Part shown: piece by piece, positions 2,985 to 61,271 of the stretch | Layout of the letters: each line of letters begins with the position of its first letter | Numbering within the stretch: the first letter of the stretch is position 1 | Source of the DNA: Spartobacteria bacterium | Lineage (GTDB): Bacteria > Verrucomicrobiota > Verrucomicrobiia > Chthoniobacterales > UBA10450 | Assembly (NCBI GenBank): GCA_003134785.1 | Contig: PLCN01000003.1 | Span: forward strand, 186,001 to 250,000 | DNA: 64,000 nt | Direction of reading: 5' to 3' | Notes under the pieces: model-generated | What the model was told of the DNA's origin: nothing | Seen by the model: the letters and a program-made list of their open reading frames with translations, nothing else | Database searches by the model: none | Translations under genes and position numbers: made by a program

Positions 2985-3431
2985 ATGCAAACGCGCTCCT
3001 TTCTCTTGCTTGGCGTGAGTCTGGCGCTGGTCCTGGGAGATTTGGCGCAGGCGCAGGCATCGCGCATGGTTTGGAGCGGTTTGGTCATCGCGAATAACGT
3101 GGCGCAGCCGGATGCAATGCCGGCGGAGCTGACTGGCATTCAAGGCACGCTGAAGGCTTTGTTTGGCTACAACCAATTCAAGGTGATCGGCCAGTCGCAG
3201 AAGACGCTGGTGACGGGTTCGGAGGACTGGCTGGCCTCGAGCAAATACTTTTCGCTCCATGTCGATTCTAAGGGGGAAACGAGCGCGGGTTATCTGCTCA
3301 ACCTGAAATTATTTCAGGAGAAGAATCTCCTGCTCGAAACGGACGCCAAGTTGAGCAAAGCCAGTCCGTTGGTGATCAAAGGGCCGCAGGTGGGCGACGG
3401 GCAATTGTTGTTGTTGCTCGTGGTCCAGTAG
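2985..3431 (+). CDS. Small secreted protein, third gene of the sigma operon
   Basis: 148 residues from the ATG at 2985. A longer in-frame start exists at 2898 inside the preceding gene, but the internal start gives a textbook signal peptide (MQTRSFLLLGVSLALVLG, cleavage near AQA-QASR). The mature part is small and beta-rich (SRMVWSGLVIANNV, YFSLHVDSKG, QLLLLLVVQ) with no recognised domain. It follows the anti-sigma gene by 7 bases, so it is probably an output or sensor of the same stress circuit. The TAG stop is the first three bases' neighbour of a perfect palindrome beginning at 3431. Confidence 0.7.
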   Translation: MQTRSFLLLGVSLALVLGDLAQAQASRMVWSGLVIANNVAQPDAMPAELTGIQGTLKALFGYNQFKVIGQSQKTLVTGSEDWLASSKYFSLHVDSKGETSAGYLLNLKLFQEKNLLLETDAKLSKASPLVIKGPQVGDGQLLLLLVVQ

Positions 3432-3513
3432 CATCAAGGAGGGGCGGTTTACAAACCGCCCGCGTTTTTCCCATGCAGTAGAGGGCGGTTTGTAAACCGC
3501 CCCTCCTTGATGC
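3431..3513. repeat. Perfect 31-bp inverted repeat with 21-nt spacer
   Basis: The arms 3431-3461 and 3483-3513 are exact reverse complements. Each arm contains a smaller palindrome, GGCGGTTTACAAACCGCC, so the element is nested. It starts on the last base of the upstream stop codon and ends 30 bases before the next gene. It could act as a bidirectional RNA hairpin terminator, but its strict symmetry is more like a dispersed REP/MITE-type unit. Confidence 0.85.
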
Positions 3514-8113: not shown

Positions 8114-9319
8114 CTACCTGCTCAACTCGCGCAGCGGGCCCGCGTATCCGGTTAGTTCCAGATATCCGCGACCTTTGATCGCCCGGCCGTGTCGGGTTCC
8201 GCTCGCATCGATCGCGCCTTCCCAGTAGGTGATGGGCCCGAGCGCCAGCTCTTGATTTTCGACCGCCGCGCGGACTACAAACTCCGTCTGCTGGCCCGCG
8301 AGCGTTACGCGCCAACTGATCGGATATTTCGCTCCGCTCGCTTTGCTTTTCCAAAACGCGATCGGCGTCATCCGAAAATCGGAGCTGCGCAAATGCGTCG
8401 TCTCGCCGTTCTGCGCGATCCACGTTCCGCTCGAACTCGCGTCAGGCTCGCCATTTTCGAGCCGCATTTGGTAGAGCATTAACTCGGTCCCATCCTCCCA
8501 TTGCAGGCAGATCCAATCCCAACCGACCTGATTCTCCGCGAGCTGACCGCTGGCCCACTCGTGATCGAACCAACTCTCGCCCCGAAAAGGATGTGACTTT
8601 CCGTTCGCGAAAAATTCACCCGTCGTCTGCATTCGCGGGATCGAATAATAATGCGAGGCGTACCTGACGGCGGCGGCCTTGACGCTAATCCCGTTTTCTC
8701 CATGGACGACTGGAGGCTTCGTCGCGCGCAAATGAAGATGGATCGTGCCGGCCTCGCTCGAGGCCATCAGATCGAAGGCGTCGTCGCCGTTCGTGGCGAG
8801 AGTCCAGTTTTCGATCCAGGCCAGTCGCTTGCCGTCGTCGAAGCCTGCCTCACCGAAAGCTCCACGGCTGGTTTTTTGTTCGAAACGAAAGGTTTGTTTT
8901 GAAACGTCGGTGAGCGCGAAGTGGGCGAACTTCAGATCGTCGACGATAAAGCGCGACGACTTCGGATCTCGCTCAGCGAAGGGTGTGATTCCCTGACGGA
9001 AGAACGTCAGCTCGTAACCGAAGCGGTGGCCATCCGCGTCGAAGATATTTCCGGTGAAATACCACCACTCCGTCTTGAAATCGCGGTGCGCGTGGTGATC
9101 TCGCGGAAATTCATACCGCCAGCCCGGTTCCGCGATCTTCCAGTCCGCAGCGGCGCACAACGAAGCAAATAAGAGCAGCCCTGTAGCCGCCACCCTGCTT
9201 GCCACGCCGACGCAGGGCGGGTGGGCGGCGCACCTCAACCACCGCGCTTCGCACAGCGAAGCGGCTACAGTTCGCTCGTGCGGACGTGCGTTGAGGCGGA
9301 CGAAGAAGGTTCGTTTCAT
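8114..9319 (-). CDS. AttH-like secreted lipocalin-domain hydrolase (CrtC superfamily)
   Basis: About 401 residues from the ATG at 9319, whose ATGA overlaps the stop of the upstream permease; a longer in-frame start at 9364 is less likely. Residues after the leader show the AttH/COG5621 pattern: [37 protein letters not shown] and a C-terminal [16 protein letters not shown]. The fold is two lipocalin-like barrels as in carotenoid 1,2-hydratase CrtC; the substrate is unknown. The hydrophobic leader core [12 protein letters not shown] is separated from the MKRTFF start by 30 codons that coincide exactly with a palindromic element (9181-9270), so the real start may be internal. Co-occurrence with an FtsX-type permease mirrors att-type operons. 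Confidence 0.85.
9181..9270. repeat. 90-bp CTGTAG...CTACAG element inside a coding leader
   Basis: It begins CTGTAGCCGCC at 9181 and ends GCGGCTACAG at 9270. The terminal 28 bases (9243-9270) are identical to 34086-34113. Its length is a multiple of three and the reverse-strand frame stays open through it, adding about 30 residues ([10 protein letters not shown]...VASRVAAT) to the AttH-like leader. Confidence 0.75.
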
Positions 9320-11898
9320 TCGCTTCGCAAATTCTCCGCGAGAATCATTCGGCCGGCCCGCCATGCTGGCACGAGGCCGGCGACCAGCGCGGCGGCGACA
9401 ATCCAGAGCGGCGTGACCGCGAGTGAGCGCCAGGGAAATGCCAACCGAATGGTCCAGCCAAAAAACGCGCGATTAATCACGCCGGTCAGAACCAACGAAA
9501 GACAAACGCCGGAAGCCAGTCCAACCAAAGCCGCCAGCACTCCGATCATCGCGGTCTCCCAAAGCAAGAGTTTGCGGATCTGGCCCGCGCTCGCACCGAT
9601 CGCCCGCAGGACCGCAAGCTCGCGGGAACGTTCCGTGATCAAGATCGTAAGCGAGAGAAAAATTCCCGTGATCGCGACGATGACCGCGATGGTTAGCAGC
9701 ACATATGTCACCGCGAAAGTCTGATCGAAAATTTCGAAAATACGCACGCGCAACGATTGGTTCGAGAAAATGACGAATTCACCGTTCCGGCTGAATCCGG
9801 CGCGGAATGCTTTGCTCAACGCTTCCGCCGAAGCATTCTGCTTCAAATAGACCGCGACGCTGTTCACGCGGTCATCGTGCCAGAAGCGGATGAAGTTCCG
9901 TTCGCTCATGTAAGCGATTCCCTGGTCGCGCGTGTAGTCATAGAAAATTCCTGCGACAGAAAACTGGCCAGCGCCGTCGGGCGTAATCAGTTCGATCGAG
10001 TCGCCGTCGCGAAGATGATGATGGCGAGCGAAAGCTTCCGAAACCACGACGCAAACTTCGTCATGAAATCGGCGCATGATCGCGGCCCCGTTACCGCGCA
10101 CAAATTGAAAATGGCGCCGCTCGCTTCCGCGCACAACCGCGACCGCGATCGTCTCGGCGCCCATGGAAAGCTCGGCGTCGCGGAACGTATCGATCGTTTC
10201 GACCGCCGGGTGCGTTTCGAGGAAGTGCACCGCAGCCGGTGGAATGAAAGAGGACGGGCCGACGATTTCGTTTGAGGCCGGCGCGACGAAGAGATCCGCC
10301 ACCAAGGTGTCGTTGATCCATGCTTCAACGGTTCTGCGAAAAGAAAATACCATCACGCTTACGCCGACAGTCATCGCGACGGCAGCGGCCAGCGCGGCGA
10401 TGGTGACGGAGTTTCTCATGAGCGCGCGGGAGAGATTCGCGGCCGCGAGTTCTGCTTCCACCGCCGCTTTTCCCCGGTGACGGCGAAGTGCGCGGAAAAC
10501 CTTTCCAGCTCCGGCGCTGAAACGAAAGGCCAGTGGAGGGACCAGAAGGGAAAAGCTGGCGAGAACAAAAAACGCCGCGGCAAAACCAAGCCAGGGCGGA
10601 CCGGTGGAAAGCGCGAGAAAAGAAAAACTTCCGGCGAGGGCTAGGCAGAGCAAACCATTCCACCACCAGGTGGATGACGGGTTGAAGGCATTCCAAAGCG
10701 CCCCTTCTTGGAAAGAGCCGTGAAGAGCGCGGACGGGTTCCAAATTCGCGGCCGCTTGCGCCGGCAGCCACGCGGAAACGATCACCGACCCTAGACCAAT
10801 CGTTCCGGCGAAAGCAAAACTCCACGGTTCCAAGACGACCTGCTTTACATTCACGAGCACGTAAAGAGATGAAATCGTTTCCGCGACGGCGCCGGCGAGG
10901 AGCCGTGCGAGAAGCGTTCCTCCCACCAATCCAAGCACGACGCCAAATAATCCCAGCACGATCGCTTCTCCCAGAAAAAGGGCGCGGACCTCGAGTCGGG
11001 TCACGCCTAACGAACGGAGAATTCCGATTTCGTGGCGGCGTCGAGCGACCGAGGCGGAAACAGTGTTGTAGATAAGGAACATCCCCACGACGAGCGAAAC
11101 CAGACTCATCGCGCTGAGATTCAATTCGAAACCGCCCAGCATTTTGTCGACTTCTTCGGTCCGCTGAGCCGGCGCCGTCACCTTCGAGTCTTTCGGCAAA
11201 ACTTTCCGAAGTTCGGTCACCACGTTGTCCCGGTCGCGCGGGTTGGTCAGCCGCAACTGGATCGCGCTTAGTTCTCCGCGACGCCCGAATAATTCCTGGG
11301 CCCATCCGATATCCATCGCGGCGAAGTGCGAATCCAGAATCGGCGCGCCTTTGCTGCGAAGGATGAATCCGACGCGCAGGTTGTGATCGATCACGTTCAG
11401 CCGTGCGCGGATTTTATCTCCAGCTTTCAAATGATGCCGCGCCACAAATTCCTCCGAGAGCGCGATGGAGCCAGGCGGACCAAGCCATCGCAGGAGATCA
11501 AGCTCACCGGCGTCGAAACTTGCCGGATCGAAGGTTCGAAACGGCGCGTTCGTGAAAACGTCGATCCCCAGGATTTCGAGATATTCACTGGGAAAATCCG
11601 GAAACGTGACGAGACCGCGCACGATCGGAGTCGCCGCGGAAATTCCATTCGTTGCTGCAACCATCGGAAAAGATGTTTCCGGTAAATGCGGCGACGTGAC
11701 TTCCAGCTCTGCCTTTCCGGCGACGAGATCGACCGTCGCGGCGAACGCGCGATTGGCGCTGTGATTGGCGATCTGGGTCGCGAGATAAACCGCCACGCCA
11801 AGCGCGACGCTTAAGATATTTAGGAGAGCGAGAAGCGGATGGCTCCGCAGATGACGGAGAACGTGCCACCTGAAGATGCGAAAATATTGTGCCCTCAA
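9316..11898 (-). CDS. ABC transporter permease with two FtsX domains
   Basis: 860 residues. An N-terminal membrane helix ([20 protein letters not shown]) is followed by a large periplasmic MacB-type domain, then an FtsX block of three helices near residues 260-385 and a second block at the C terminus (residues 730-860, with [20 protein letters not shown] and [15 protein letters not shown]). The [14 protein letters not shown] loop is the coupling signature to an ATPase. The topology matches LolCE/AttFG-like single-chain permeases that move lipids or lipoproteins. No ATPase gene is adjacent, so the partner is encoded elsewhere. The gene starts 12 bases after the EamA gene and overlaps the AttH-like gene by 4 bases. 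Confidence 0.92.
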
Positions 11899-19589: not shown

Positions 19590-19631
19590 CTTTCTGTTTT
19601 CTCGGGAGGGACGAGCTTCCGCTCGTCCTGC

Positions 19632-19700
19632 CTGTAGCGGCGCTCTATGAGCGCCGACCGCTTGGTGGTCCGATTCGGCGGTCATAGACTGCCGCTACAG
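19632..19700. repeat. 69-bp CTGTAG...CTACAG element
   Basis: It runs from CTGTAGCGGCGCTC to GCCGCTACAG, with an interior of the GGCGGTCATAGACYGCC type. Directly before it (19603-19631) is a separate hairpin, GGACGAG-CTTCCG-CTCGTCC. Both lie between the converging hybrid kinase gene and the 288-residue secreted-protein gene and could end both transcripts. Confidence 0.75.
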
Positions 19701-19709
19701 AAGATCAAG

Positions 19710-25661: not shown

Positions 25662-25710
25662 AACGCGTCACCATACGCGCCTTTTGCGCCTCGCAAAACA
25701 TTGCCTCGCC

Positions 25711-25772
25711 GGTAGCGGCGGTCTATGACCGGCGAAACCATCGTCAGCTGAGACGACGTCATAGGCCGACGC
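25711..25772. repeat. Degenerate member of the GTAGCGGCGGTC palindrome family
   Basis: The left end GGTAGCGGCGGTCTATGACC (25711-25730) is close to the intact copies at 37640 and 58025. The right half (GACGTCATAGGCCGAC to about 25772) is diverged and the CTACAG end is missing. Confidence 0.55.
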
Positions 25773-29056: not shown

Positions 29057-29262
29057 ACGGATCTCTCCTACCTACCGTCTCGGCTGCGTCGCTAGCCGGG
29101 CTCTGGGTAACGGCCTCTCGCATCGTTCGCTGCATTCGTATTCGAGAGGCGGGCGATGATGCGAGCGTGCGAGGGGAATTGAGCCACAGATTGACACGGA
29201 TTTTCACTGATGCAGAAAAAGAGAGGTGCCGATCCGTGTTTCATCCGTGCTAATCCGTGACC
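29057..29262. repeat. Diverged direct repeat, copy A (about 205 bp)
   Basis: It aligns with 29392-29592 through GGATCTCTCCTAC, CTCGGCTGCGTCGCTAGC, GCATTCGTATTCGAGAGGCG, GATGATGCGAGCG and the tail ATCCGTGTTTCATCCGTG. Internal segments such as GACACGGATTTTCACTGATG pair loosely with the tail. Frames across it encode look-alike peptides (FCISENPC...) but no plausible protein. Confidence 0.8.
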
Positions 29263-29391
29263 AATAGCCATCTGCGCCCGTTCGCGAAGGCAAGTTAGCG
29301 GCGGAAGCCACACTCCAGAACGAAGAATCGCGGTTTTGGACGAACGAGAGGTTGACGAAGCTTGGCTCATTCCTCTTCCGGCCCGCGAATG

Positions 29392-29592
29392 CGGATCTCT
29401 CCTACTTACCTCTCGGCTGCGTCGCTAGCTGAGATTGGGTAGTGGCCTCTAGCATCGTTCACTGCATTCGTATTCGAGAGGCGGGCGATGATGCGAGCGA
29501 GCTGAGGAAATTGAGCCACAGATCGACACGGATTTTCACTGATGCAGAAAAGAGATCTACTGATCCGTGTTTCATCCGTGTTTATCCGTGGC
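29392..29592. repeat. Diverged direct repeat, copy B (about 200 bp)
   Basis: Second copy of the 29057-29262 unit, about 335 bases downstream in the same orientation, with several small indels. After it (29645-29668) is a small GCGGGC-GGA-GCCCGC hairpin. The spacer 29263-29391 contains no gene. Confidence 0.8.
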
Positions 29593-29706
29593 AAACGATC
29601 TTCGATCCGTAGGCAGAACCGAGCCAGCGGGCGTGAATTGGGATAGCGGGCGGAGCCCGCTTTAAACCCGGGGCGGGCATGGTGACTGCTCTCTTCATCA
29701 GTCGAG

Positions 29707-34085: not shown

Positions 34086-34113
34086 CGCGCTTCGCACAGC
34101 GAAGCGGCTACAG
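34086..34113. repeat. 28-bp element end, identical to 9243-9270
   Basis: It reads CGCGCTTCGCACAGCGAAGC then GGCTACAG, ending in the family's CTACAG terminus. The matching CTGTAG end is not visible upstream, so this is a solo end or a decayed copy at the breakpoint of the PIN gene. Confidence 0.7.
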
Positions 34114-37639: not shown

Positions 37640-37716
37640 TGTAGCGGCGGTCTGACCGCCGGAAAGGCGTCGCGTCACAAAAGCGCGTTCGGCGGTCATA
37701 GACCGCCGCGACAAGA
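37640..37716. repeat. 77-bp GTAGCGGCGGTC palindrome copy
   Basis: The left end is CTGTAGCGGCGGTCTGACCG and the right part GGCGGTCATAGACCGCCG, ending CGACAAG in place of CTACAG. It lies between the converging secreted-protein and FHA-cyclase genes. Confidence 0.75.
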
Positions 37717-37738
37717 AAGCGACGCTCGCGCGCTGGAT

Positions 37739-42160: not shown

Positions 42161-42310
42161 TTCTGGGGAGCGCAGGCTGCCAGCCTGCACGTCTCGGCAG
42201 CTTGCCGAGACGACTCGTTAGGTTCCAATGCGCGCTAAAGCGGTTCGCGTCCCAAGATGTTGCCGGCAAGCTGCCGGCAACTGCAGGCTGGCAGCCTGCG
42301 CTCCCCAGAA
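42161..42310. repeat. Perfect 29-bp inverted repeat with nested hairpins
   Basis: Arms 42161-42189 and 42282-42310 are exact reverse complements (TTCTGGGGAGCGCAGGCTGC...). Each contains AGGCTGCCAGCCT. Two further small hairpins lie between (CGGCAGCTTGCCG and GCCGGCAAGCTGCCGGC), plus one CTCGTTAGG word at 42214. It sits exactly between the permease stop codon and the converging GH26-like gene. Confidence 0.9.
42214..42222 (+). other. CTCGTTAGG word 6 (intergenic, inside a palindrome)
   Basis: The only copy wholly outside a gene, in the middle of the 42161-42310 inverted repeat. Confidence 0.7.
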
Positions 42311-57990: not shown

Positions 57991-58024
57991 TTACCTTCTT
58001 TCTCGCGCCGATTTCAGTCGTCTT

Positions 58025-58097
58025 CTGTAGCGGCGGTCTATGACCGCCGAACGCATCGAGTACAATAGTTGTCGGCGGTCATAGACCGCCGCTACAG
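58025..58097. repeat. 73-bp CTGTAG...CTACAG element, best-preserved copy
   Basis: It starts CTGTAGCGGCGGTCTATGAC and ends GGTCATAGACCGCCGCTACAG; the outer roughly 23 bases are near-perfect reverse complements. It lies between the converging rpsA and M20 dipeptidase genes, suggesting it also works as a bidirectional terminator. Confidence 0.85.
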
Positions 58098-58111
58098 GAA
58101 GATTCGGCGCG

Positions 58112-59617: not shown

Positions 59618-59680
59618 GGATTTCCCCGGTTAAGAGTTGTTCGGGAAGTTAGAACCTTCCCGCCGAGCAAGACAAGCAAA

Positions 59681-59744
59681 TGTAGAGGCGCTTGTGCCAA
59701 GCGCCTTAACTCAGACACAGGCGCTTGGCACAAGCGCCTCTACA
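59681..59744. repeat. 64-bp TGTAGAGGCG...CGCCTCTACA palindrome
   Basis: The arms (59681-59705 and 59720-59744, TGTAGAGGCGCTTGTGCCAA...) are perfect reverse complements over 25 bases. It lies immediately after the asnS stop (stop codon at 59746-59748). It shares the TGTAG...CTACA ends with the GTAGCGGCGGTC copies but has a different interior. Confidence 0.85.
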
Positions 59745-59745
59745 T

Positions 59746-61182: not shown

Positions 61183-61255
61183 CTGTCGGCGCTTCGCTAT
61201 GCGAAGCGCGAGGGAATGTCCCGCGCACGGCGCCGCCCACAGGGCGGCGGCTACA
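61183..61255. repeat. 73-bp element with one good CTACAG end
   Basis: The left end is CTGTCGGCGCTTCGCTATGC (61183, altered from CTGTAGCGGC) and the right end GGGCGGCGGCTACAG (to 61255), with internal CGCTTCGC-TAT-GCGAAGCG. It lies between the divergent asnS and MBL start codons and so probably sits close to both promoters. Confidence 0.7.
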
Positions 61256-61271
61256 GGGTGAGAGGAAAGAG

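Follow-up and report, generated by a model that had tools for sequence, protein, structure and literature searches.

REPs of the GTAG class are tagged palindromes that occur as inverted dimers (Di Nocera et al. 2013, PMC3733652), and in Pseudomonas such dimers are named REPINs (Bertels & Rainey 2011, PMC3116915). In-frame dimers inside genes have already been described: in the available text of Di Nocera et al. (2013), GTAG REP dimers within open reading frames encode 20–30 residues and lie at the N terminus more often than at the C terminus, with the verrucomicrobium O. terrae having the most intragenic repeats. That text does not single out signal-peptide n-regions. According to the available part of a review (PMC2229807), Rickettsia palindromic elements (RPE; Ogata et al. 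2000) are small mobile palindromes found in frame inside functional proteins, and in Yersinia the MITE fusion YPO1552 (Delihas) derives part of its predicted signal peptide from a small mobile sequence. Autotransporter signal sequences of more than 50 residues which work by Sec also exist (PMC2805444).

The window, i.e. the whole stretch of 64,000 nucleotides analysed here, belongs to the genome of a soil verrucomicrobium of the Chthoniobacterales, referred to as G000, and the features discussed are collected in Table 1. The original prediction described an AttH-like gene, starting at an ATGA overlap with a permease gene, whose leader is interrupted by a stop-free 90-bp element of 30 codons running from CTGTAG (9181–9186) to CTACAG (9265–9270). 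All of this was confirmed in the sequence, and the name AttH-like is consistent with the Pfam matches of the encoded protein. The 90 bp separate the ATGA-coupled start from the hydrophobic core and are open in the lipocalin frame on the minus strand. Counted from the ATG, the leader has 58 residues, with the core placed by hydropathy calculation at codon 47 onwards. The n-region is therefore 46 residues long with a net charge of +6, a basic extension ahead of a complete n-h-c arrangement. Relatives of the lipocalin gene were not found in a scan of viral contigs.

Table 1. Features of the window, with positions counted from its first nucleotide.
Feature	Position	Strand	Remarks
CrtC/AttH-type lipocalin gene	8114..9319	-	401 aa; Pfam PF07143 (CrtC) + PF17186 (Lipocalin_9)
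Hydrophobic core and cleavage region	9146..9181	-	12 residues; hydropathy calculation; position relative to mature protein conserved in orthologues
GTAG-type REP dimer (REPIN), 90 bp, in leader	9181..9270	-	encodes 29 residues plus two boundary codons
REP-B arm, long variant	9181..9230	+	extended loop; inverted relative to REP-A; similar long REP-B in dimers L055, L058, L070
Spacer between REP-A and REP-B	9231..9244	.	sequence varies among dimers
REP-A arm, CTGTAGCCGCTTCGCTGTGCGAAGCG, with hairpin	9245..9270	-	125 genomic copies; DNA fold
Original basic start of lipocalin leader	9271..9319	-	16 residues; sequence; orthologues
ATGA overlap, 4 nt	9316..9319	-	permease stop and lipocalin-gene start
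FtsX/MacB-type ABC permease gene	9316..11898	-	upstream in same operon
Further REP-A copy, locus L062	34085..34113	-	29 nt identical to element end; REP-B partner not found
Typical short REP-B	61228-61256		

The element is a dimer of GTAG-class REPs, i.e. a REPIN. Each arm carries the GTAG tag at its outer end, the REP-A arm has a hairpin stem (CGCTTCGC/GCGAAGCG) and the long REP-B arm an imperfect one, and when the element is folded as DNA its two outer ends pair with each other. It shares with the GTAG REPs, as far as these are covered by the available text of PMC3733652 and by PMC3116915, the 5′ GTAG tag, the hairpin, the high copy number, the inverted dimers and the REP-associated tyrosine transposases (RAYTs) flanked by the same REPs. 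Assignment to the Rickettsia elements was considered and rejected: the element can, like an RPE, be read in frame, but the RPE, as described in the available part of the review, are of another sequence class, are 105–146 bp long rather than 90 bp, occur in an intracellular bacterium and have no GTAG tag.

REP-A is a dispersed, high-copy family. With up to three mismatches its 26-nt arm matches the genome at 62 + 63 = 125 sites, 35 of them exact, while the reversed pattern gave none. An inverted partner arm accompanies 71 of 90 sampled copies, and the resulting dimers mostly measure 75–131 bp end to end, with a modal length of 84. The usual partner is of the REP-B type, ending in ...GGCGGCTACAG, and the spacers vary from copy to copy. 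Counted across genomes at up to two mismatches, REP-A is abundant in G000 (105), G006 (114), G004 (78), G003 (68), G005 (41) and G007 (24), and is nearly or wholly lacking from G002 (3) and G001 (0). These last two genomes are nearly free of REP-A, yet both hold RAYT-like genes. The identity between the element end and the copy at 34086, noticed at the outset as 28 bp, is real and extends over 29 nt; given the 125 copies of the arm against none for the reversed control it is not due to chance. It was originally read as a sign of recent movement, which is unsupported: this end is the family consensus, with 41 further exact copies in the congener G004, and G003 has a dimer at the same spot. An identical arm of this kind was thus rejected as a means of dating the insertion.

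RAYTs flanked on both sides by REP-A/REP-B are present in two congeners, at loci L226 (G005) and L221 (G004), which score 107.8 and 104.0 bits against NF047646 (cut-off 80), and their surroundings are the published REPtron arrangement. The element in the lipocalin leader was presumably moved by a RAYT. A RAYT flanked by REP-A was not found in G000, where the RAYTs adjoin other GTAG REPs. The strongest PF01797 match in G000, L031, was dropped as a candidate mobiliser, being an IS200/IS605 transposase and not a RAYT. The coding sequence of the G005 RAYT (L226 1501–1926; G005:C9:61148–61573, minus strand) itself seems to hold a single in-frame REP-B (ATASPTGRRLQK).

Comparison with relatives supports the view that a palindromic element was inserted in frame within a signal peptide. 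The orthologues in G001, G002 and G007 lack an insert and have normal leaders of 18–23 residues, in which a short basic start stands directly before the core; their n-regions have 9, 5 and 3 residues respectively. None of the element-free orthologous leaders compared encodes the same 30 residues. The G003 leader has its own 84-bp REP dimer, whose end falls on the same codon ahead of the core. The G006 leader contains an inverted repeat of another kind, its arms 30 bp long, present in 49 copies in G006 and in at most one in each other genome searched, and the leader of G009, from another genus of the family, contains a third repeat with 104 copies in its genome. All three inserts are free of stops and keep the frame set by the overlap start; ATG codons also occur inside those of G003 and G006. 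A palindrome-like stretch in the G005 leader is single-copy and so was not counted as a repeat insertion, and the stretch in the G004 leader was likewise left out of the count. Because G002 and G003 are sisters in the permease-lipocalin tree, either two gains of the REP dimer or a single gain followed by loss in G002 must be assumed; trees of single genes conflict, or give weak support, as to how G000, G002 and G003 branch. The recurrence of similar in-frame insertions in relatives, at this site and in a second gene for a secreted protein (below), suggests that the n-region is a tolerated landing site.

A second leader of the same kind was found in G000. Its TolC-like gene (L167; PF02321) likewise starts at an ATGA overlap, and its leader contains a REP dimer of 118 bp, in the orientation opposite to that in the lipocalin gene. 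Dimers occupy the same place in the orthologues of G003 (91 bp), G005 (112 bp) and G006 (91 bp), and each of the four lengths leaves a remainder of 1 on division by three, with every one of the four leaders open; the leaders of G001, G002, G004 and G007 have no REP dimer. In the carriers the overlap is ATGA or GTGA, and a GGAGG-like SD-like site (GGGGAG in G000) lies near the upstream start. Of the 90 inspected REP-A copies, only these two were clearly inserted in a leader, and each lies at an ATGA overlap, though with two cases the link to such overlaps is only suggestive. Outside leaders, miaA of G000 (L194 1123–2094; G000:C17) has a REP dimer of 84 bp, read in frame, in a variable loop of the housekeeping enzyme MiaA. 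A related REP-derived insert is present in this loop in G003 and a different insert in G004 (GTGILPVGETNRQDACAT), and five congeners have none.

We regard it as probable that the REP dimer was inserted in frame and is read as an extended n-region with little effect on fitness. A pair of REP-A and inverted REP-B is a short non-autonomous element, such as RAYTs would mobilise, and it entered the gene after the ATGA-coupled start codon and ahead of the signal-peptide core. As no stop arose and the frame was kept, the coupled ribosome could still start at the original ATG and read through the element, giving an n-region that is basic and abnormally long. The core, the cleavage site and the mature protein would be unchanged and the extension should leave with the signal peptide, and the insertion would therefore be close to neutral. 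On this reading the element would be translated and the protein exported normally. Such a leader can work, given the autotransporter signal sequences of more than 50 residues, which likewise place a basic N-terminal extension before a normal n-h-c region. They differ in that many autotransporter extensions share a conserved motif (PMC2805444), whereas the extensions here would be unrelated, each a translated repeat. In YPO1552, as outlined in the available part of PMC2229807, the MITE supplies part of a leader that belongs to a new protein, whereas here the core was pre-existing and the element extends the n-region only.

One argument for translation comes from the reading frame. The chance that a random dimer, inserted in random orientation and phase, would be open with a length divisible by three was computed as 0.16. 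The frame test used carriers that had not been preselected, namely the lipocalin genes of G003, G006 and G009 and the TolC-like genes of G003, G005 and G006, and every one of them is open and in frame. A single insertion may be the ancestor of several carriers, so that few independent events lie behind these statistics; for about three independent events the probability that all are open and in frame would be ∼0.004, an unlikely outcome unless translation passes through the element.

The original prediction had offered two outcomes, a tolerated if bizarre leader or a start moved downstream. In the second, the element would be a 5′ leader and initiation would occur at an in-frame GTG within it, the REP supplying both the start and a basic residue. 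This GTG would give a tidy leader of 20 residues resembling an ordinary signal peptide, and some predicted ORFs of G000 that span a REP (L050, L188) appear to begin downstream of it. The available text of Di Nocera et al. (2013) is also in accord with such a start, since it holds that, with initiation farther downstream, most N-terminal REPs of P. putida, C. koseri and S. maltophilia may not be coding. At the lipocalin gene itself, where the SD-like GGAG of the upstream ATG is weak and distant, a moved start is a fair rival. However, there is no SD-like sequence ahead of the GTG, and in both genes every carrier keeps the frame open from the original start, something that initiation downstream would not require. 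In the TolC-like genes the SD-like site and the start stay upstream of the element, and in the G006 copy no good start lies in the stretch from the last REP to the core. Thus the extended n-region is favoured over downstream initiation because frame and openness are kept in all carriers and because of the upstream SD-like site of the TolC-like genes, and a moved start is unlikely overall.

Less likely still is that the element is kept as a regulator, in which case an RNA hairpin or pause site after the permease stop would tune coupled translation or mRNA decay and the coding capacity would be incidental. The element is located exactly at the coupled junction, and REPs near gene junctions have been proposed as post-transcriptional elements in the available text of PMC3733652. 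However, the leader RNA folds no better than shuffled sequences (z −0.85), and the repeat family, the spacer and the length differ between species at this site while several congeners have no element, so that no structure is conserved. The proposal that the 30 codons are an ancient segment of the protein, palindromic by chance, has practically no probability: it is refuted by the orthologous leaders without the insert, and the arm recurs 125 times in the genome, mostly with a partner.

Translation through the dimer as an extended n-region bears on how N-terminal REPs are regarded in general. Where the available text of Di Nocera et al. (2013) treats many of them as probably untranslated, the frame retained across species and the upstream SD-like site argue here for translation. 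These comparisons provide evidence on the open question of whether N-terminal REPs are translated, and indicate that at least some probably are. What seems to be new is that different elements recur in the n-regions of secretory genes coupled by an overlap, and that comparison between species gives evidence of their translation. It is possible, though we hold it with more doubt than confidence, that in the Chthoniobacterales palindromic mobile elements repeatedly land in the n-regions of ATGA-coupled secretory genes, where translation is tolerated and REP-encoded residues (e.g. the basic LRTAKRLQK from antisense REP-A) serve as n-region. Elements usual at gene junctions would settle just past the start codon in such genes because coupling leaves no intergenic gap. 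The insertions described here also suggest a route by which mobile repeats can reshape signal peptides with secretion unbroken, and annotators should be warned against trimming such starts automatically.

Several other repeats were observed in the window. A second GTAG REP type, REP-C (TGTAGCGGCGGTCTATGACCGCCGA), occurs at 19628–19704, 25709–25743, 37685–37717 and 58021–58101, in some cases as inverted pairs, and flanks a G000 RAYT outside the window (L158/L225). Positions 59680–59745 contain a perfect 27-bp inverted repeat, ATGTAGAGGCGCTTGTGCCAAGCGCCT, and the same palindromes flank the RAYTs L218 (G006) and L227 (G004). At 29104–29595 a pair of direct repeats (116 nt, 91%) is followed by copies of a ATCCGTGTTTCATCCGTG-type sequence. 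Other long inverted repeats lie at 42161–42310 (47-bp arms, 91%) and 3431–3513 (31-bp arms, 100%).
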